Shown: in pieces, positions 4,489 through 32,042 of the stretch
How the letters are laid out: every line of letters starts with the position of its first letter
Numbering within the stretch: position 1 is the first letter of the stretch
Assembly (NCBI GenBank): GCA_021803465.1
Contig: JAJZLL010000038.1
Location: 1 to 33,091 of the forward strand
Direction of reading: 5' to 3'
Origin: a bacterium
GTDB lineage: Bacteria; Chloroflexota; Dormibacteria; Aeolococcales; Aeolococcaceae
Length of the DNA: 33,091 nt
Program-made: the position numbers and the translations under genes
The notes under the pieces: generated by a model
What the model was told of the DNA's origin: nothing
The model's database searches: none
Seen by the model: the letters and a program-made list of their open reading frames with translations, nothing else

Positions 4489-4564
4489 GCCGACGTAGCT
4501 CAGTTGGTAGAGCAGCGGTTTCGTAAACCGCTGGTCGGAGGTTCGAGTCCTCTCGTCGGCTCCA
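4489..4564 (+). tRNA. tRNA-Thr, anticodon CGT
   Basis: A complete 76-base cloverleaf. The acceptor stem GCCGACG pairs with CGTCGGC, the D-arm is GTAGCTCAGTTGGTAGAGC, and the anticodon stem GCGGT/ACCGC carries loop TTCGTAA. The anticodon CGT at 4522-4524 reads ACG (Thr). The T-arm contains GGTTCGAGTCC. The 3' CCA is encoded (4562-4564) after discriminator T. It has its own promoter just upstream and no clear terminator after it. The AT-richer, gene-poor stretch begins immediately downstream. Confidence 0.97.
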
Positions 4565-20639: not shown

Positions 20640-23600
20640 CTAGTTCGGACGATGCTGCCAGCGTTTTCTGTACAGCAGCACAAAAGCGACTGCAAGACAT
20701 GCTCCGCAGGCAAGGAGCGCAACGAGAAGCGCCTGCCACGTGAGGAGCACATTGCCGATCTTTCCAAGGAATGACAGTCCTGAAACAGGAAGGGTGCCGT
20801 GTGGCGCCTGCACATGGGCAGTTCCCAGGAAGGTCGCGTGGGGACGAAATTCCACCACACCCTTCTCCGGGGTGAGTGCCACGCCTCCAGCTGTCGCAAG
20901 CCTGGCTCCACCTGCAAGAAGCACTTCACCATTGGAGAGAGTCACTGCAGAGGCGTTCATCTCCGGAGAAGGTAGGTTCCCTGCGTTCTTCCACGTCGCA
21001 GTCTTCACATCGAACACATCGGCACTGTCAAGCATCGTGGTTCCTGCCAATCCTCCTGCAACAAGCACATCACCATTTGGCAGCTGGCTCACACTGGGCA
21101 TGACACGGGTTGTCCGCATGCCAGCACTCTCTATCCACACGCCCGATGCAGGATCAAAGATGTCCGCACTGGCACCATCTCCCACAACAAGCGCCGTTCC
21201 ATCGGGAAGCGTGACTGCTTCCGCAAAAAATCGAGGCTGGGACATCGTTCCTGCCCGACTCCAGTGGCCGATCGAAGGGTCGTACATCTCAGCTGCAGCA
21301 GTTGGATGACCTGTGCTGTCCAGTCCTCCTGCCACAAGGATGCTTCCGTTGTGCAGGACAGTCGAAGCTGCAAATGCGTGGGCAGCATGCATGGATGCAG
21401 CTGCTGTCCACGTTCCGCTTCCCAGATGAAACACCTCTGACGAGGCAAGTGGCGCATGGTGCATCCCGAGCCCACCTGCTGCGAGAACCTCGCCCCCTGG
21501 GAGCAGTGCAGTGGCAGCAAACGCACGGGGAGTTGCCATCGCACCCACCTCATGCCATGTGCCCGTTGCAACCTCATAGATTTCCGCAGAGGAAAGAGGG
21601 AGATCCTGTGAGCCAATGCCTCCAGCAACGAGGACATTTCCGTCAGGCAGCAGCTGTGCCATGGCGCCGAGCCTGGCTGCGTTCATTGATGCAGTCTGAG
21701 TCCAGTGTCCATCCGCAGGATTGAAGATCCATGCCTGTGATGTCGGACTCCCCTGCGCAGTGAACCCTCCAGCCAGAAGGACATCCCCTCCATGAAGGGG
21801 AACGAGCACACTGTCACTGACTGGCTGTGCAAGAGGAGGCGCATGGTACCATGCGCCCACTGCGTTCCCTTCGCTCGGCACTGCAGTGACATCCGATATC
21901 GCCTGGGAACCACCCTGTATCGGTCCAGTGCTCCGAAATGCACCCGCTAGCACGATGGGATTCTCTGTTGCAGTTCCTGAGCTGATGAACTGCACATGGG
22001 ATCCAGGCCGCACAACTCGCACTGGCTCACCTGTTTTCGGGACATAGCTCAGGAGCACTGTGCTCGTTGCACTGTTACCCGCACCGCCATTGATCGCTGT
22101 TCCAGGCGTGTACCGTGTGGACACTGAAGCTGTGCCGTTGTAGTAGAACGTGATGGAATACCCATCCGCCTCAAGGGTCACGCCACTGCTGTTCACCGAG
22201 AAGCCTGTCTTGCCAATGGTCACATTGACATACGTGTATGACCAGTAGTAGTCGCACGGATACGGAGCCCAGCCATCCCACCAGCACGTGGCGCCAGGAA
22301 GATACGCGCCAAGCTGCACATTGACATTTCCCCACAGGAAGGCGCTGATCCCACTAGTGCTGACGTTGATTGCGACCGATGCGGAAAGTGAGCCTCCGAC
22401 ATACAGCGCAGGTCCAATGTCCGACCCTCCTGGTCCCAGAGAAAGCGTGCCGTCAAATTCAAAATCGAACATGAGTGGCGATGTGCTTGCATCGAGCTTC
22501 ACAGTGATTGGTCCAACAGTGAGACCGCCTAGCGTGACTGAGGAGAGGGTTCCCAGGAAGTGGATGCTCGGTGGAGCAAATCCGATATTCGCCATGACAT
22601 TGAGGTTCACCCCCTCAACGGATGCCTGGAAGGCGAGTCCGAATCCCGCGGGGTAGACCGTTTGGGCAATCGTTGCCCCTTCAGGACAGAGGTACAGCGA
22701 TGCGAAGTCAATCTCAAGAAGGTTTCCTTGCCCGAAATATGCGAACGGTTCCAGTGCGGGAGTTCCGGAATTTGCTGTCCCGATGGAGAGGGAAAGCAGG
22801 AACGGGTCAAAGTTGAAGGCAAAGCTGATTGGGGCATTGTTCATGTAGCCAATGACATTCGCCACTGTGGACGGAAGCGACGTGATTGTCCCCTCGAAGC
22901 CGACATTTGGCAGGGGTACTCCATCGCCCCAGCTCACGCCTCCCTGGAGAGCTGCGCACTTCACTGTAAGACCGTTGAGACCAAATGCATCGACCCATCC
23001 AGCACTGGTTCCAGAGCAGTTGCCAAGCGAGAGACTGAGATTGATTCCCGTATCCGATACTGTCAGCGCTCCAGTGAGTGTCACGGATGAGGCAGCTCCA
23101 CCATTTCCTGGCGAGGGAAGGTTCAATGTGGTGTCGAGTCCCAGTGAAAACGATTCAACACTCGGAGACAGCACGACAGCGACAAACCCATCATCCAGAA
23201 CAAGTGAGGCTCCCCCAGTGCTGAAGATGGTAAGCCCAGTACCGAGTGATATGGACACCTTGAAGGTGTACGTGTCAGTGGCAAAGTCGGCTGTTCCAAC
23301 TGCAGTGAGTGCAGTGTTCGCTGGAAGTGAGAGCCCAATGTGGGTAAGCATGCTCGTGAAGCTCTGCGGAAGATCAAGGGCGATGGCGAAATCAATCCCC
23401 TGGGTGAGATTGATTGCTCCGAGGGATGGGCTTCCCGTGGCGAAATTTGCCATGTCCGCACTTGCGTAGTAGAGATACGCACTGTTTCCTGAGCTTCCAA
23501 TCCACTGTGAGAGATCAACTGATGCACCGATGACAAATCCCGCACTGCTGTAGGCGATGACTGCAGTCGCCTGGATAGTGCCACCGCCTGGCATCGAAAC

Positions 23601-26600
23601 AGTGAACGGAGCCGTGATTGCAACCGCAAAGGTGCCGGACGTGTCGCTGATCGTGAAGGTGGGATCGGAAAGTGTCACTGCGTTGTTGAGAGCGCTGAAG
23701 CTCAGGGAAGGAATCGATGCAGTGAGGATGAAGGTGCCTGCAGTGATGTCGTACGTCCCTGATGCCGTGACAGAGCCGGAAACGCTCCCGAGGGAGATCG
23801 TCATCCCTCCTGATACGCATACCCAGAGATCTCCCACCTTTGACACCGTGCACCCTGTGGATGGCGCACCATTGCCAATGCCAAGAGACGTCACGGTAAA
23901 GCTGTAGCCAGTGCTTGATATCGCAAGCAGTGGACTCTGGTTGGTGCCAGTGGCAAGGATGACAAATGTCACTGCTCCCGAAGTGTCCGTAAGGGTTCCA
24001 GAGAGCGTTGCGTCAATGGTGAATCCAGGAGCTGGTGTGAAACTCTGCGCCTGGGCCAGGGTGAGTGAGAGCTCCCACGAACTGAGAGAGGTCACAGTAC
24101 CCGACAGGGCAATGGATCCAACATTGTCTGCACTCACTGTTCCCGAGATGGTGAGTCCTGCAGTTCCGAGATCGAAGGACAGGTTCGAAATCGTGACAGG
24201 CACACCAGAGAATGGGGTGATCGGACCGGGAATCGCTCCCTTTGTGCAACTGCTCCCCGTGACAGTGCAGCTGGCAACATCCGCAGTGATGTTTCCGGAT
24301 GCGGAACGGGTCACTGTACCCACCATTCCGAAGCTTGCGCCGAACACTGTCATGTTCGAAACAGTCACACTTCCCGCAAATGAGCCGTCCGTGCTGATGG
24401 TGATGGTCATGGTGAGTGTTGCGGAGGGCTCAGCAGGTATCGGAATCGTGCCATCAGCAGTGAAGGTGAGTGAGCCCCCTGCAAAGGTGAGTGTCGCTCC
24501 TGTGATGCTTCCTCCATCGGGAAGGGTGAGTATGGGGTAGTTTGCAGGTGAGGAAATCGTTGCAGTGAATGTAGGAGTGGCTCCAGGAGTCCAGGATGCG
24601 GAAAAGAAGATGGTCCCACTTGAAGCAACGGAAAAGCCAAGCGCATTGAGCGCGCCTGCAGTTGCAGGATCGAGCTGGTAGAGAGCAAAGGCGTTGAATC
24701 CCTTGGCAAGCGTGACAGTCCCAATCCCGCTAACACCAGTGTTGAACGCGCTCACAGGTGCGGATGCATAGACAAAGACGCCCGTGAGGGGAACATTGAG
24801 GTTGCTGAGGCTGAGATTCGTTATTGCTATGATGAGAGGTCCATTCGTGTCAGTGACCGTCATGATGATCGGCTTTGCACTCAGGCTGGGTACCAGCACT
24901 GATGCCTGTCCATTCACGCTGAGGGAACTGCCAATCCCCACAATGGAGAGCTGCTGGAGTGTCACTGTGAACCCGGGAGCCACCTGGATGGTCGGTGTGG
25001 CAATGGTGGAATCGAGCCCCAACGCGAACGCGCCTGAGCGGAGGTTGAGCGTTCCATCAATGCCTGCTGTGAAGCCGGAGGCTCCTCCCACACTCACCAT
25101 GCCCTGCATGGAAAGCGTGGGATCAGTGGGTGTCGAGAGTCCTCCTCCAGTGCAGCCATTTGCGGGGGAAGAAATGCCATACGCAAATGCGATGCAGTAC
25201 ACGGTGAGTGCCACTCCACTTCCAGATGGCGCAAATGTTGCGAGAGCTGGAGATGCGCTTCCCGATGTGGGAGAAGTCCCTGCTCCAATGTCATAGGTCA
25301 CTGCTCCGCTGTCGGAGATGGTCACTGTTCCCGACACCGTTGCAGTGAATGTGAGACCAGACACGGGAGACCAGCTCGGAAGGGCTGTTGGCGAAGCAGC
25401 AATGCTCCACGTCCCAGCAGTGTATGTTCCAGTTAAGGGAAGGGTGACAGGATGCGCTGCGCTACCAAATGTTCCTGTTGCGCTCACTGAGAGTCCTGCA
25501 GTGCTTGACAGTGTGAGCGATATGCCTCCAACAGACATGCCTGGAAGCGGTGCGTACGTGCCAGTGTTCGAAAGGGTGATGGAGCCGCTTCCTCCATTGA
25601 GGCTTCCCGAAGAGCCAGTGCTCACTGCGAAGGTGCCGTTCCACGTGCTGCCAAAGGGGACATTGTGGAGACTCACAGTCCCTCCTGCACTGACTGCTGA
25701 ACCTGACCAGCCTGCAGTGATGTCTACCAGCGCATATGGAGATGAGCTCGGGACAGTGCCTGGGCCAATGTGGATCGCAATGTCCTGGGGAGAGCCGCTC
25801 GTGAATGAGAGAGTGAGGTCATACGGCGTGGAGGATCCTGCCGCTCCGAAGGGCAGGGACACTCCAGCTGCTGTCAACACACCTGACGTGATTGTCCCAA
25901 GCGTGCCCCCTCCAGCAGTAGCCGAGGAGATTGAAAAGCAGAGATCTTCCGTTGTGCCAAGCGGTACAGGAGAAAGCTTCCACCCTGATGGGAAGCCAAG
26001 GTTCCCCCCTGTGATGCACAGCTCCGTACCCCCCGTCGTGTCAGCAATGTACCCTGAAAGGCCAGTTCCACCCACACTCCCCCCAAGGAAACTCAAGTGT
26101 ACTGCTGACAGGGAAATGGTAGTGTCCCGTGTGCAGGAGCCACTGAGACCAGCTGCTGTCCCAGCAAGGGTGGATGCTCCTCCCAAACTTCCAGGCGTGA
26201 AGGAGAGTGATGCTCCTGCAGAGCCAATGGCTGTCCAGAGCGTCTGGAATGGGGCGCTGCATGCTCCTCCCGGAGTGAATGCTGCAGTTCCACTGGTTGG
26301 TACTGCGAAGTTGGGACTTGGTGTCACTGTTGCAGTGAATGTGTCGGTTGCAGTCGGAGCTGGAAGCGAGCAGGTTGCTGCTGCTGCCCCGTTCGCTTCG
26401 GGTATGAGCGTGACAGCACTGCAGCTGCTTGGATTTGTTGGAGATCCAGAGAAAACCACAGTGCCTGCTGGTGGTGCAGGAGAACCTGCACTGGTGTTGG
26501 TCACTGTCGCTGTGATGAGAATGTGCCCAGCAATCGATGGATCAGGACCAACAGTGACCCCCAGTGAGGTGGATGCGGGCGTAATGGTGATGGATGCGGG

Positions 26601-29600
26601 AAGCGCTGTGCTTCCCTCGTAGGCGCCTCCCGCATACGCGTATGCAGCTCCAAACGTGTAGGGAGTGGAGAACACATCCTCCTCGGGAAGCGTGCATGAC
26701 GCACTGCCTCCAACGACAGCGACATTCACGCAGATGGGGGATCCTGATGCTCCAAGAATTGCTGAGGCGGATGCGCTCCCTGGAATCGTGTCACTGAAGG
26801 CAATGGTTCCACCCGACACGGGAGTGCCTGAGGAATCCACTGTGGCAGTGAGTGTGATGGGCGTACCGAACGCTACGGACGAGCCTCCTGGTGAGACTGC
26901 AAGCGTCGTTGTGGTTGGAAGTCCGCTCACACTGTAGTAGCTCGGTTCGGACATCGTGTCCGATCCAGCAGTGAGCACGGGAAGTGCTGGTGAGGGAGTG
27001 AACATGGCAACGAGCGCATCCTGCCCCCCAGCTGTTGGCCTGTACTGGCATGAAGCTGTGGCAGTTCCCGGAGAGGAGCCTGCCTGCACGGCAACGTTCA
27101 TGCAGTTAGTGGCATTGCCATTCTCGTAGAAGCTCATGGTGCCAGCTGGTGTGGCAGGCGAGGATCCTGTTGGCAGCACGGTATGCACTGTAGCTGTCAC
27201 TGTGAGGGACGACCCGCCCGTGACACTCACAGGATGGGTGTCCGAGCCAAAGGGACTCACTGTGATCTGTGTTGGATCCGGCTTTGGAGTGTAGGCTGTC
27301 GTCGCTTCCGTGCCAGGCTGCCAGTCCACACAGTCTGTCGCTGTGCTTCCCTGAGGACAGAATGTCGCTCCATAGATGTGCTGTGAGGCATCCGTTGGCG
27401 ACATCGCCACTGTGCATGTGGCAACACTTGTTCCAGGACTGCCACTCACGGGGTTCGGTGATGCAGGGGAGGAGTTGGTGCAGACTGCGGGCGCTCCATT
27501 TTCCGTGAAGGCGACTGTGCCGCTTCCCAGTGGCGCTGCATGGGTGTTGCTCGCATCAGTGATCGTTGCAGTTACCGTGATGGGGACACCGACATACGGG
27601 TCGTTCTGGGCAGCGCTCACGGACACTGCAGTGGACGTCGCTGCGGGCGTGATCGTGTAGAGCACATTCGTGGACGTCCCGGTCGAGCTGCTTTGGGAGG
27701 TCTCGCTGTCTCCCTGGAAGCTCGCAACAAGAGCTCCCTGGGTATTCGAGGGAACATAGGTGCAGGAGGACGCTGTGCCTGTCATGACACCACCTCCTAT
27801 TGGCACAAGCTTATTGAACGGTGCAGGATTCAGTTGCCCAATCCCGGTGCAGGTTGCGGTCGGGCCACCCACACCATACGTGTACACCACTTCTCCAGTT
27901 CCCGATGTGTCCGTCGTGGGAATGTTCGTGACTGTCGCAGTCGCAGTCTCCGGGGTTCCATAGGTGATTGTTGCGCCTGTGGGATCCGGAGCCACTGCAA
28001 GTGTCGTCGTGGTCGTGAACTTCGCGACATCAAGGGACTGTGGAGTGGGGGGAGTCTGGCCTAAGGAGGGAGCATTGAGGTTGTCATTGTTCCCACCATA
28101 GACGGCAGTGAACTCGTAGTTTGTACCAGGCGTCGCTGTGAACGGGCAGGACGGATTCGCAGCACTTTTGGCAGCGAGATTGCCTGGTATCGTCTGCTGG
28201 CAGGCAGACATCGAGGGAGTGGGAAATGTTGTCGTGGTGCTTTTCGAATAGAGGAAGTTCACTATTCCATCCGTTGTCCCGGAATCCTGCCCAAGTGAAC
28301 CTATGGCGTATGAGACTGGTCTGACTGTCACTGACAGCGTGTACTGCGTTGCGGACACAGGCGTGATGATGACATTGCCGATTGTTGTCGGATCTTTGAG
28401 TCCAGTGAGGGCGAGAGAGGAACTCGTCTGCTGGGCTGTGACACCATCCCCCGAGTAGCTTGCCGTGTAGCTGAGCGTGCCGACTGCAGGAAGCGTGATG
28501 GAACATGCTGCTGTACCGCTGCTGTCCAGTGCGACTGCCACACAGGCGGACCCTGATCCACTGCCTCCTGAATAGTTGAACGTGACAGTTCCTGTGGGTA
28601 TGTAGGTTGGATTCGATGGTGTCGTGACATGTGCAGTGAGCGTGATGGCACCCACTGCTCCCGCATTCGCGGAACTTGAGCTGCTCGTGAGCTGCACAGT
28701 TGGCGTGGCAAGGGGCCAGGACACTGTGACGGATCCCGCTGAGTTGGATCCCCCACCGCCACCAGGAGTGTCCGAGACTCCACTCACATATGTTCCGTTG
28801 TACCCGTCGGAGCCGCCTGCACCGCCACCGCCAGAACTGTCCGTGCTTCCGCCGCCACCTCCGCCACCGCCGAGCCAGCCGCCACCTGCACCGCCACCGC
28901 CGCCTCCGGATCCGCCAGCGCCACTGCCACCACCACCACTTCCACCAGAGCTCGATGAGCCAGAACTGCCACCTCCTCCCTGGTCTACTGAGCATGCCCC
29001 GTTGTTGGAGCCACTGCCACTACCACCGCCTGATGCGCCTGCTGTGCCGCCATAGCCATTGCAGGTACCACCACCATTAGATCCATTGCCACCATTGGAG
29101 GACGTTGCTCCGCCTGTTCCTCCTGTCGAGGGACCCTGTCCAGATCCGTATCCACCGTAGGAGCCACCACCGCCAGCTGCAATCATGCGGGTGCCAGCAA
29201 CAGAGATGCTCGAGCTTCCGCCACCACCACCACCACCGTTGTGGCCACTGCCGCCAGAACCTCCGTCAGGCCACCCTCCAGCACCACCCGTGCCGCCATT
29301 GTCACCGTTCCCAGCTCCACCAACATTGATGGAAAGCGATGCTCCACTCGACACAGACAGTGCACCAGAAATCTTCCCCCCTGCCCCATTGCCACTTCCA
29401 GCTCCGCCAGCGCCACTGACGGACACATTCACTGACGTGAGACCTGATGGAAGTTGCAGACTCTGGGTTGCTCCCGTGTATCCGTACGTGCACTGTTCCA
29501 CATAGTTTCCTGTTGTGCCTGTCTGTGAACATGCAGCAGGAAGCGGGTTGCTGAGGGCAAGGGCCCGAGCATCAAGGGACAGCTGGTTCAGCGGAACGCG

Positions 29601-29789
29601 CTCCGTGGTCGTCGCATATCCTGGAGGAAGCTGGAATGTCTGCGGTCCAGCATGGCTTTGTGTAGGAGCGGGCTGCACAGCTGCAGGATTGACAACCACA
29701 TTGGCAAGTGACGTTGTCACTGCAAATCCCAGAAGCACAAGGAGCGTGAGCTGACGGGCACGACTCACTGGCACATGCAGTCTACGCAT
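20640..29789 (-). CDS. giant secreted, membrane-anchored surface protein (about 3049 aa)
   Basis: One uninterrupted frame. Approximate parts: signal peptide 1-29 (RRLHVPVSRARQ then LTLLVLLGFAVTTSLA); glycine-rich domain 124-348; about seven Ig-like repeats 352-1167 (each 100-130 residues, opening with TTTLAVSP-type strands, like bacterial Ig-like families); an unassigned Ser/Thr/Gly- and valine-rich beta region 1170-2580; a kelch-type beta-propeller 2659-2982 with about seven blades of LPDGxVLVAGG...W type; then LPVSG (3000-3004), a transmembrane helix (about 3020-3040) and a basic tail RKRWQHR. This is a cell-surface display layout, suggesting adhesion to cells or polymers. The start is uncertain: the frame also has GTG/ATG at 29846/29843 with a poor site; 29789 makes the signal peptide begin correctly. 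No matching whole protein is known to me. Confidence 0.85.
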   Translation of the reverse strand: MRRLHVPVSRARQLTLLVLLGFAVTTSLANVVVNPAAVQPAPTQSHAGPQTFQLPPGYATTTERVPLNQLSLDARALALSNPLPAACSQTGTTGNYVEQCTYGYTGATQSLQLPSGLTSVNVSVSGAGGAGSGNGAGGKISGALSVSSGASLSINVGGAGNGDNGGTGGAGGWPDGGSGGSGHNGGGGGGGSSSISVAGTRMIAAGGGGSYGGYGSGQGPSTGGTGGATSSNGGNGSNGGGTCNGYGGTAGASGGGSGSGSNNGACSVDQGGGGSSGSSSSGGSGGGGSGAGGSGGGGGGAGGGWLGGGGGGGGSTDSSGGGGAGGSDGYNGTYVSGVSDTPGGGGGSNSAGSVTVSWPLATPTVQLTSSSSSANAGAVGAITLTAHVTTPSNPTYIPTGTVTFNYSGGSGSGSACVAVALDSSGTAACSITLPAVGTLSYTASYSGDGVTAQQTSSSLALTGLKDPTTIGNVIITPVSATQYTLSVTVRPVSYAIGSLGQDSGTTDGIVNFLYSKSTTTTFPTPSMSACQQTIPGNLAAKSAANPSCPFTATPGTNYEFTAVYGGNNDNLNAPSLGQTPPTPQSLDVAKFTTTTTLAVAPDPTGATITYGTPETATATVTNIPTTDTSGTGEVVYTYGVGGPTATCTGIGQLNPAPFNKLVPIGGGVMTGTASSCTYVPSNTQGALVASFQGDSETSQSSSTGTSTNVLYTITPAATSTAVSVSAAQNDPYVGVPITVTATITDASNTHAAPLGSGTVAFTENGAPAVCTNSSPASPNPVSGSPGTSVATCTVAMSPTDASQHIYGATFCPQGSTATDCVDWQPGTEATTAYTPKPDPTQITVSPFGSDTHPVSVTGGSSLTVTATVHTVLPTGSSPATPAGTMSFYENGNATNCMNVAVQAGSSPGTATASCQYRPTAGGQDALVAMFTPSPALPVLTAGSDTMSEPSYYSVSGLPTTTTLAVSPGGSSVAFGTPITLTATVDSSGTPVSGGTIAFSDTIPGSASASAILGASGSPICVNVAVVGGSASCTLPEEDVFSTPYTFGAAYAYAGGAYEGSTALPASITITPASTSLGVTVGPDPSIAGHILITATVTNTSAGSPAPPAGTVVFSGSPTNPSSCSAVTLIPEANGAAAATCSLPAPTATDTFTATVTPSPNFAVPTSGTAAFTPGGACSAPFQTLWTAIGSAGASLSFTPGSLGGASTLAGTAAGLSGSCTRDTTISLSAVHLSFLGGSVGGTGLSGYIADTTGGTELCITGGNLGFPSGWKLSPVPLGTTEDLCFSISSATAGGGTLGTITSGVLTAAGVSLPFGAAGSSTPYDLTLSFTSGSPQDIAIHIGPGTVPSSSPYALVDITAGWSGSAVSAGGTVSLHNVPFGSTWNGTFAVSTGSSGSLNGGSGSITLSNTGTYAPLPGMSVGGISLTLSSTAGLSVSATGTFGSAAHPVTLPLTGTYTAGTWSIAASPTALPSWSPVSGLTFTATVSGTVTISDSGAVTYDIGAGTSPTSGSASPALATFAPSGSGVALTVYCIAFAYGISSPANGCTGGGLSTPTDPTLSMQGMVSVGGASGFTAGIDGTLNLRSGAFALGLDSTIATPTIQVAPGFTVTLQQLSIVGIGSSLSVNGQASVLVPSLSAKPIIMTVTDTNGPLIIAITNLSLSNLNVPLTGVFVYASAPVSAFNTGVSGIGTVTLAKGFNAFALYQLDPATAGALNALGFSVASSGTIFFSASWTPGATPTFTATISSPANYPILTLPDGGSITGATLTFAGGSLTFTADGTIPIPAEPSATLTMTITISTDGSFAGSVTVSNMTVFGASFGMVGTVTRSASGNITADVASCTVTGSSCTKGAIPGPITPFSGVPVTISNLSFDLGTAGLTISGTVSADNVGSIALSGTVTSLSSWELSLTLAQAQSFTPAPGFTIDATLSGTLTDTSGAVTFVILATGTNQSPLLAISSTGYSFTVTSLGIGNGAPSTGCTVSKVGDLWVCVSGGMTISLGSVSGSVTASGTYDITAGTFILTASIPSLSFSALNNAVTLSDPTFTISDTSGTFAVAITAPFTVSMPGGGTIQATAVIAYSSAGFVIGASVDLSQWIGSSGNSAYLYYASADMANFATGSPSLGAINLTQGIDFAIALDLPQSFTSMLTHIGLSLPANTALTAVGTADFATDTYTFKVSISLGTGLTIFSTGGASLVLDDGFVAVVLSPSVESFSLGLDTTLNLPSPGNGGAASSVTLTGALTVSDTGINLSLSLGNCSGTSAGWVDAFGLNGLTVKCAALQGGVSWGDGVPLPNVGFEGTITSLPSTVANVIGYMNNAPISFAFNFDPFLLSLSIGTANSGTPALEPFAYFGQGNLLEIDFASLYLCPEGATIAQTVYPAGFGLAFQASVEGVNLNVMANIGFAPPSIHFLGTLSSVTLGGLTVGPITVKLDASTSPLMFDFEFDGTLSLGPGGSDIGPALYVGGSLSASVAINVSTSGISAFLWGNVNVQLGAYLPGATCWWDGWAPYPCDYYWSYTYVNVTIGKTGFSVNSSGVTLEADGYSITFYYNGTASVSTRYTPGTAINGGAGNSATSTVLLSYVPKTGEPVRVVRPGSHVQFISSGTATENPIVLAGAFRSTGPIQGGSQAISDVTAVPSEGNAVGAWYHAPPLAQPVSDSVLVPLHGGDVLLAGGFTAQGSPTSQAWIFNPADGHWTQTASMNAARLGAMAQLLPDGNVLVAGGIGSQDLPLSSAEIYEVATGTWHEVGAMATPRAFAATALLPGGEVLAAGGLGMHHAPLASSEVFHLGSGTWTAAASMHAAHAFAASTVLHNGSILVAGGLDSTGHPTAAAEMYDPSIGHWSRAGTMSQPRFFAEAVTLPDGTALVVGDGASADIFDPASGVWIESAGMRTTRVMPSVSQLPNGDVLVAGGLAGTTMLDSADVFDVKTATWKNAGNLPSPEMNASAVTLSNGEVLLAGGARLATAGGVALTPEKGVVEFRPHATFLGTAHVQAPHGTLPVSGLSFLGKIGNVLLTWQALLVALLACGACLAVAFVLLYRKRWQHRPN
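28745..29420 (-). repeat. glycine-rich low-complexity tract in the giant gene
   Basis: About 225 codons dominated by Gly and Ser (GGAGGSGGG-like runs), read on the plus strand as CCACCG/CCTCCA repeats. Short repeats of this kind are prone to length change. The protein pattern (GAGGAGSG at the front, SVTVSWP closing) resembles glycine-rich domains on bacterial surface proteins. Confidence 0.85.
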
Positions 29790-29820
29790 GCATGCCACAC
29801 ATGGACGGATAGCCGAACAT
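29782..29820 (-). CDS. 12-residue leader peptide ORF overlapping the giant gene start
   Basis: A 13-codon frame MFGYPSMCGMHA-stop. A purine-rich site GCGAGGGGAG lies 3-7 bases before its ATG, better than any site before the giant gene's own ATG. Its TAG stop overlaps that ATG: the last eight bases, ATGCGTAG, contain the giant gene's start codon in another frame. Ribosomes finishing the leader would therefore be placed at the main start, implying translational coupling. This is read from sequence; translation is not shown. Confidence 0.4.
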   Translation of the reverse strand: MFGYPSMCGMHA

Positions 29821-29983
29821 GGTCTCCCCTCGCATGGACCCATCACACCTGCACGGTCGATGGATCATGCCACCCTGAACTCTATACTGCTGCACACACA
29901 TGACCATTCATGTCACGTAGGTAGCACTATATCATTCCCCAGATCACATCTGCCCGAGTGCTCAAGTGTGTGGATGGCACAAC

Positions 29984-30011
29984 GGGGATGGCTCCAGCTG
30001 GAGCCATCCCC
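29984..30011 (-). terminator. 28-bp perfect palindrome after acs, likely terminator hairpin
   Basis: GGGGATGGCTCCAG (29984-29997) is followed directly by its exact complement CTGGAGCCATCCCC (29998-30011), so RNA from either strand can form a very stable hairpin with about 12 paired bases. It lies 15 bases after the acs stop and upstream of the giant gene. On the minus strand the bases after it are GTTGTGCC, without a U-run, so it is an imperfect intrinsic terminator or an mRNA 3'-end stabiliser. A smaller repeat ACATGA-CCAT-TCATGT (29898-29913) lies nearer the giant gene. Confidence 0.7.
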
Positions 30012-30026
30012 ATTTGCACATGCGTC

Positions 30027-32021
30027 TTACTCTTCAGTTCCCGGATGCGCCTTGAGATTCTCATCAATCATCTTGACGACTGTGGGATCCAGGAGGGTTG
30101 TCACATCTCCTAGTTCCCGGTGCTCCGCCACATCGCGAAGCAGTCGCCGCATGATCTTGCCGCTTCTTGTCTTCGGAAGCTCTGGAGTGAGAATGATCTG
30201 CCGCGGTTTGGCGATGGGTCCAATGGTAGTGGCGACATGGTCACGGAGGTCCGAAACAAGCTGGCTTCCATCTTCCTCCGACTTCGCCTGCTCACCCTTT
30301 ACTGTGACAAACGCAACTATAGCCTGGCCAGTAATGGGATCCGATGCGCCAACTACTGCTGCCTCGGCGACAGCTGGATAGCCAACAAGCGCATGCTCGA
30401 TCTCCGTTGTGGAGATGCGATGACCCGAGATGTTCATGACATCATCCACCCGACCGAGAAGCCAGATGTCTCCATCCTCATCCCGCTTGGCTCCATCACC
30501 TGCGAAGTACATCCCCGGAAACCGTGACCAGTAGGTGTCCCTGTAGCGCTCGGGATCGCCCCAGATACCTCGAAGCATCCCTGGCCAGGGCTTCCTGATG
30601 ACAAGGTAGCCACCCGCACCGTTGGGTACGGAATCCCCATGGTCGTCCACAACGTCCGCATCTATGCCAGGAAATGCGCGCATTGCTGCTCCCGGCTTCG
30701 TTGACGTGATGCCGGGAAGGGGTGTGATCATGATGCCTCCCGTCTCTGTCTGCCACCAGGTGTCGACAATGGGACAGTTGTCACGTCCTATGTACTTCCG
30801 GTACCACATCCACGCCTCGGGATTGATGGGCTCGCCAACTGAGCCAAGGAGGCGGAGTGAAGACAAGTCATGGGAAGCTGGATAGGACTCCCCCCACTTC
30901 ATGAGGGTACGGATCGTGGTTGGTGCAGTGTACAGGATGCTGACCTTGTATTCCTCGACAATCTTCCACCACCGATCCTTTCCGCCTGCGTCCGGCGTTC
31001 CCTCGTACATGACTGAGGTTGATCCGTTCACCAGCGGTCCATAGACGATATAGCTGTGTCCTGTCACCCAGCCAATGTCTGCAGCAGTCCAGAAAATGTC
31101 ACTCTCCGGCTTGAGATCGAAGATGTACCGGTGCGTCGTTGCTGTATGCACGAGATACCCGGCAGTGGTATGGAGGATGCCCTTTGGCCGTGCGGTTGTG
31201 CCGCTCGTGTACATGATGTAGAGCGGATGCTCCGCATCGAACGCCTCTGGCGTATGTGTAGTCGACTGGCGGTCAACCAGGTCATGCCACCACACATCCC
31301 GACCTTCAACCCAGTTCACCTCTCCACCAGTCCGGCGCACGACAAGCACGGAACGGACATTGGGACAGGTTTCGAGAGCCGCATCCACCTGGGGCTTGAG
31401 CGGAAGGGCTGTCCCCCGACGGAACTGTCCATCCGCTGTGATGATGACACGCGCGTCCGCATCCTGGATTCTGCCTGCAAGGGCTTCGGATGAGAATCCA
31501 CCAAACACCACGGAGTGCGGTGCGCCTATCCGTGCGCAGGCAAGCATTGCGACAACAGCCTCGGGAATCATTGGCATGTAGATTGCGACTCTTTCGCCTG
31601 CTGTGACTCCAAGCTCCTCAAGTGCATGAGCTGCCTGGCTGACCATGGCAAGGAGATCGCGGTACGTAATGACTCGATGTTCTCCTTCGGGTTCTCCAAC
31701 CCAATAGTAGGCGACCTTGTCTCCTCGTCCCTCTTCGACATGCCTGTCAACGCAGTTGACTGCCGCATTGAGCTTTCCGCCAACAAACCACTTCGCAAAC
31801 GGGAGATCCCACTCAAGTGTGGTGTCCCAGCGCTTCTCCCATTTCAGATGCTCCGCTTCCTTGGCCCACCATGCGACTGGATCCTGTGCAGCCTCCTCGT
31901 ATATGGATGGCTGGGCGTTCGCACTCTTGGCAAATGCCTCGGAAGGGGAGAAATGCCGATGCTCATGCAGCAGTGCAGCAAGCGCCTCGCCCTGGATAGA
32001 GCCAATTGTATCGTTGCTCAT
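30027..32021 (-). CDS. acs: acetyl-CoA synthetase (AMP-forming)
   Basis: Makes acetyl-CoA from acetate, ATP and CoA via acetyl-adenylate (664 residues, normal for Acs). Landmarks: an N-terminal WWAKEAEHLKWEKRWD segment, VFGGFSSEAL, the nucleotide loop YTSGTTARPKGILHT (271-285), WTAADIGWVTGHSYI, DTWWQTETGG, the hinge region with GRVDDVMNISGHRIS, and the C-terminal PKTRSGKIMRR, whose Lys is the conserved catalytic and acetylation site in this family. SGTTARPKG is a variant common in actinobacterial Acs. The ribosome site AGGAGG lies 6-7 bases before the second ATG (32021), preferred over the first at 32024. It lies 21 bases after satP, so the two form an acetate operon. A strong palindrome follows the stop. 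Confidence 0.97.
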   Translation of the reverse strand: MSNDTIGSIQGEALAALLHEHRHFSPSEAFAKSANAQPSIYEEAAQDPVAWWAKEAEHLKWEKRWDTTLEWDLPFAKWFVGGKLNAAVNCVDRHVEEGRGDKVAYYWVGEPEGEHRVITYRDLLAMVSQAAHALEELGVTAGERVAIYMPMIPEAVVAMLACARIGAPHSVVFGGFSSEALAGRIQDADARVIITADGQFRRGTALPLKPQVDAALETCPNVRSVLVVRRTGGEVNWVEGRDVWWHDLVDRQSTTHTPEAFDAEHPLYIMYTSGTTARPKGILHTTAGYLVHTATTHRYIFDLKPESDIFWTAADIGWVTGHSYIVYGPLVNGSTSVMYEGTPDAGGKDRWWKIVEEYKVSILYTAPTTIRTLMKWGESYPASHDLSSLRLLGSVGEPINPEAWMWYRKYIGRDNCPIVDTWWQTETGGIMITPLPGITSTKPGAAMRAFPGIDADVVDDHGDSVPNGAGGYLVIRKPWPGMLRGIWGDPERYRDTYWSRFPGMYFAGDGAKRDEDGDIWLLGRVDDVMNISGHRISTTEIEHALVGYPAVAEAAVVGASDPITGQAIVAFVTVKGEQAKSEEDGSQLVSDLRDHVATTIGPIAKPRQIILTPELPKTRSGKIMRRLLRDVAEHRELGDVTTLLDPTVVKMIDENLKAHPGTEE

Positions 32022-32042
32022 CATTACCCTCCTGTGGGTATG

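Follow-up and report, generated by a model that had tools for sequence, protein, structure and literature searches.

The window, as we call the whole 33,091 nt stretch of DNA analyzed here, belongs to a genome of 2.03 Mb in 73 contigs (G000), which was compared with one genome of the same genus (G001). It carries a giant gene on the minus strand, whose frame is open from the GTG at 29846 to 20640 and would encode 3,068 aa if counted from that GTG. The protein starting from the ATG at 29789 has the N-terminus MRRLHVPVSRARQLTLLVLLGFAVTTSLA, which by eye is probably a signal peptide, and the protein is probably secreted. It contains kelch repeats and an Ig-like Big_3_5 domain (Pfam) as well as a Gly-rich part, and a C-terminal membrane segment was recognized by eye. 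The C-terminus (20640-20820) consists of LPVSG, a hydrophobic segment and the tail YRKRWQHRPN, an arrangement which we take to resemble a sortase-type sorting signal.

The acetyl-CoA synthetase gene (acs, 30027-32024) is located upstream of the giant gene. The inverted repeat between the two genes is the probable transcription end of acs, and joint transcription of the giant gene in an acs operon is therefore improbable. A scan of this intergenic region for a T-run terminator found none. An inverted repeat at the acs end is kept as a structure in the sister genome (L003, about 1000-1050), with a wholly different sequence. A possible extended -10 element, TG-N-TAYAGT, occurs in both genomes 111 nt upstream of the leader ATG, and a scan for two-hexamer sigma-70 promoters upstream of the leader found nothing. 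Because the inverted repeat separates acs and the TG-N-TAYAGT element is present in both genomes, the giant gene is probably transcribed on its own, with about 100 nt preceding the leader.

Table 1. Features around the start of the giant gene (positions in the window)
Feature	Position	Strand	Remarks
Giant gene	20640..29789	minus	3,049 aa from ATG 29789; open frame and domain search
Predicted hairpin, main AUG in stem and leader UAG in loop	29769..29797	minus	7 inner pairs GCAUGCG/UGCAUGU; 30-nt fold
Leader ORF MFGYPSMCGMHA-stop	29782..29820	minus	ATG 29820, 12 sense codons, TAG 29784-29782; kept as MFGSPSMSDMHA-stop in the sister genome
Stop/start overlap ATGCGTAG	29782..29789	minus	-8 nt spacing; same letters in both genomes
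Leader ribosome-binding site GAGGGGAG	29824..29831	minus	GAGAGGAG in the sister genome; duplex -8.3 / -9.1 kcal/mol
Possible extended -10 promoter element TG-N-TATAGT	29926..29931	minus	TACAGT in the sister genome; TG and distance to the leader ATG unchanged
Inverted repeat between acs and the giant gene	29981..30014	.	opposite-strand self-match, 94% over 34 nt

The minus strand reads GAGGGGAG-ACC-ATG TTC GGC TAT CCG TCC ATG TGT GGC ATG CAT GCG TAG, and the main ATG of the giant gene (29789-29787) is contained within ATGCGTAG. This reading confirmed the preliminary description, made from the window alone, of a 12-residue leader which has a purine-rich ribosome site and whose stop overlaps the main ATG. 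It also bore out the remark that the main ATG itself has no clear ribosome site, as no SD-like site was found there and the anti-SD duplex is only -1.5 kcal/mol (-1.9 kcal/mol in G001).

To judge these values, the starts of orthologous genes in the two genomes were used as a comparison set. Among 393 reciprocal pairs, 190 were without overlaps, and 130 of these shared a start and were 55% or more identical; this set is not clean and includes some shadow ORFs (e.g. pair 1683, which lies antisense to the giant gene). The subset counts of 127, 128 (giant gene included) and 120 refer to pairs with enough flank. Duplex energies were computed against the anti-SD core, whose letters we assumed. A site at least as strong as that of the leader is found at 24% of the 130 starts and in 2% of control stretches, while 87% of the starts are at least as strong as the main ATG. 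SD sites are indeed in use in this genome, since 62% of the comparison starts are preceded by a match of 4 or more bases, versus 32% and 20% in two control zones. About 38% of the comparison starts lack an SD, as the main ATG does.

The matching region in G001 lies on contig C43 (10,504 bases; DAIDIX010000043.1, a Candidatus Dormiibacterota MAG) and reads GAGAGGAG-ATC-ATG TTC GGC AGC CCG TCC ATG AGC GAT ATG CAT GCG TAG, with the overlap unchanged. The ribosome site, the leader start, the length of 12 codons, the stop and the overlap are all kept in this single congener. The leader, whose loss in close relatives had been named as evidence against it, is not lost in the sole relative compared. 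In G001, an in-frame TGA is located four codons before the main ATG, which makes a start at 29843/29846 impossible there and unlikely in the window, and leaves the main ATG as the first usable start in the sister genome. The GTG of codon 6 (29774) was also rejected as a start of the giant gene, as this codon is GTA in the sister.

Including the stop, 10 of the 13 leader codons are identical between G000 and G001. The other three all differ non-synonymously (Y/S, C/S and G/D), and no synonymous change is present in the nine remaining sense codons. Codons 1-110 of the main gene comprise 50 identical codons, 45 synonymous changes and 15 non-synonymous changes. A conserved leader with changing third bases, which had been proposed as support for the coupling, was not found. 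Since three non-synonymous and zero synonymous changes were counted, selection on the leader peptide was rejected, and we do not claim it; what is conserved may be the leader nucleotides, the open frame or translation itself rather than the peptide.

The leader pattern occurs once each in G000 and G001, that is, in 2 of the 32 genomes of the family, and is absent from the other 30; its only locus in the named genome collection is the sister contig C43. Similarly, among 50 genomes of the order, the N-terminal 110 residues of the giant protein were found only in G000 and G001, and the other 48 gave no ortholog of this N-terminus. Another genome of the family, G023, encodes three proteins (L006, L007 and L008) with similar Gly-rich parts, which were left out of the comparison because their N-termini are unrelated to that of the giant protein. 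The region upstream of the main ATG is not exceptionally conserved: the identity of 0.775 over positions -40 to -1 is reached by 46 of the 130 ortholog pairs, and that of the -40 to -16 block is matched by 7 of the 30 pairs with a diverged upstream.

A hairpin, GCAUGCG-UAGAC-UGCAUGU, is predicted at the start of the giant gene with the same placement of AUG and UAG in both species. The 30 nt fold has a predicted energy of -13.0 kcal/mol in the window, where it includes four outer pairs, and of -8.3 kcal/mol in G001, where there is one extra U-A pair. When 40 nt on either side were folded, the unpaired probability of the main AUG was 0.009 in the window and 0.002 in G001, whereas that of the leader AUG was 0.80 and 0.73, respectively. 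The product of the two main-AUG values is lower than in any other of the 130 pairs. With flanks of 20, 30 and 60 nt, 4, 19 and 13 of the 130 pairs are as low. When the upstream sequence was shuffled, a start was as inaccessible in 19% (window) and 6.5% (G001) of the trials, and 134-nt folds gave no global signal (z about 0 versus shuffles). Because of this context-dependent rank, the shuffle frequencies and the z value, the predicted start hairpin is plausible but not proven.

We consider it fairly probable, judging from the sequences, that translation of the giant gene is coupled to that of the short leader via termination-reinitiation. Ribosomes would bind the GAGGGGAG site, translate the 12 codons and stop at the UAG in the loop of the hairpin that hides the AUG of the giant gene. 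The terminating ribosome would keep the hairpin open and, instead of leaving, would slip back a few bases and initiate again at the AUG that overlaps the stop. The peptide encoded by the leader is probably only a by-product. In support, the leader has a usable start with a ribosome site in two species, its stop overlaps a downstream start on the same strand in both, and the arrangement is conserved in the only congener compared. The downstream start has no SD of its own, and the strength of the hairpin predicted around it varies with the context folded. The coupling suggested in the preliminary description is partly supported: the strong leader site, the absent main site and the predicted hairpin fit it, but the expected third-base pattern was not seen. 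We infer leader translation, formation of the hairpin in the cell and re-initiation, as well as any regulatory use. A stronger version, in which the leader would be an obligate, regulated gate and the predicted hairpin would keep this 9-kb surface-protein gene silent, is doubtful; changed ribosome loading on the 12-codon leader would then act as an on/off switch for giant-protein synthesis.

The main alternative, which we regard as unlikely, is that the leader is a chance mini-ORF, persisting by accident in two related genomes, and that ribosomes start on the giant gene directly at ATG 29789 without the help of an SD, which about 38% of the comparison starts lack. In 7,926 shuffled upstream regions, 214 (2.7%) contained an ATG mini-ORF that was SD-led, 8-40 codons long and terminated at -2 to +12, and in 32% of simulations a chance leader was still present after the block had received 10 substitutions. 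With a loose SD test, 1 of 120 other pairs had a conserved leader at the same coordinates at the overlap, and comparable conserved mini-ORFs at non-overlapping positions numbered 0-2 of 120 per 15 control offsets. However, when a strong site (at most -7.5 kcal/mol) was required in the same place in both genomes, only one of the 120 other ortholog pairs had such a leader at the overlap (15 offsets) and one over 75 control offsets. The expected background at the overlap is about 0.2 per 120 genes, and the case at the overlap position is pair 1430, itself leader-like. In addition, the leader site remains strong despite different bases (GAGGGGAG and GAGAGGAG), and folding predicts a buried main AUG. 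Chance occurrence is therefore roughly 0.2-1% per gene. With some 25 genes scanned per window, by a rough count, the leader is suggestive of more than chance, not conclusive.

It is improbable that the conserved block represents an RNA or DNA element, namely two small hairpins or a protein-binding TGCATG repeat, with the frame incidental. The seven leader differences are confined to codon 4, which forms the loop of a predicted CAUG-UU-CGG....CCG-UC-CAUG hairpin, and to codons 8-9, which form the linker, and the other leader codons lack even a synonymous change; TGCATG-N7-TGCATG is rare, with two matches in 548 kb on both strands. The first hairpin, however, shows no compensatory pair change, in the second only one pair has changed, from U-G to U-A, the folding energy is no better than that of shuffles, and the strong ribosome site directly before the ATG is left unexplained. 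A search of the entire window at the Rfam gathering thresholds returned nothing but the tRNA at 4489-4561, with no known RNA near the leader. We also rejected a riboswitch-linked uORF, as this search gave no known aptamer upstream, and an attenuation or arrest leader peptide, as 3 of the 12 residues are changed and neither a codon run nor an arrest motif was seen by eye.

A programmed +1 frameshift at GCG-UAG-A could fuse the leader to the giant protein, because shifting by +1 at the stop would bring the leader frame into the main frame, and a minor fusion product is reported for uPPE2-PPE2 (PMC11260477). By eye, no slippery codon or internal SD-like stimulator lies beside the UAG, and a normal AUG overlaps the stop, which makes this very improbable. 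Finally, that the giant protein begins at ATG 29843 or GTG 29846, with the leader internal to it, is scarcely credible, for although the frame is open in the window, it contains a TGA in the sister genome, the duplex energies of the two starts are -3.8 and +0.4 kcal/mol, respectively, and the signal-peptide-like N-terminus starts at 29789; such a protein start, which had been named as evidence against coupling, is blocked in the relative.

The proposed coupling of the giant gene to its leader resembles several known systems. In PMC8876359, the 11-residue, SD-led ORF-11 of the integron attI1 site precedes cassette genes without a ribosome site, and its translation is proposed to pass ribosomes on. 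Like the present leader, ORF-11 is tiny and has a GGAG-type site and a TAG near the start of a site-less gene. ORF-11 differs in being located within a recombination site, its stop being supplied by the inserted cassette without a fixed overlap (PMC8876359), whereas here the overlap is fixed and the downstream gene is a chromosomal giant gene. In M. tuberculosis, PPE2 expression is strictly uORF-dependent and proceeds mainly by termination-reinitiation, and an out-of-frame SD-led uORF overlaps the start of the SD-less gene, as at the giant gene (PMC11260477). The uPPE2-PPE2 overlap is AUGA (-4) and is combined with a B12 riboswitch (PMC11260477), whereas ATGCGTAG has -8 nt spacing and there is no Rfam match nearby.

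A 2025 review (PMC12548453) includes the -8 nt spacing (NTGNNTGA type) among three enriched overlap spacings and describes both an RNA-unfolding and a ribosome-scanning model for coupled pairs; coupling has been tested in E. coli and Haloferax (PMC6728339). Coupled pairs in these sources are generally two protein genes of an operon, while the upstream partner here is a 12-codon ORF (PMC12548453, PMC6728339). Short unannotated leader ORFs before structural genes were proposed to raise initiation by re-initiation in PMC4833913, whose survey counted non-overlapping leaders only; the present leader overlaps by 8 nt. In the open-licence PMC literature, 'Dormibacterota' in that spelling was not joined with 'leader peptide' or 'translational coupling'. 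The leader is most likely a new instance of an established mechanism whose principle is already known. It leads to a corrected start for the 3,049-residue protein and suggests a way in which the costliest secreted protein of an uncultured lineage may be controlled. In addition, it provides a compact -8 nt coupled leader for reporter testing.

Elsewhere in the two genomes, a second SD-led leader of 11 residues is located at L121 3681-3716 (MSRAAFGTMRL-stop; MHHAASGTMGL-stop in the sister, G001:C56, L083 minus strand). Its TGA overlaps the GTG start (GTGA, 3713) of a 257-residue Rce1-like protease gene in both genomes, and the first 60 residues of this protease are found in 2 of the 32 genomes of the family. 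If leader and hairpin together did gate the giant gene, this second leader would point to a lineage habit in Dormiibacterota. Among the most buried starts in both genomes is also that of L117 at 2576 (+), with an ATGA overlap and unpaired probabilities of 0.005 and 0.009; this gene is possibly coupled to an upstream gene.
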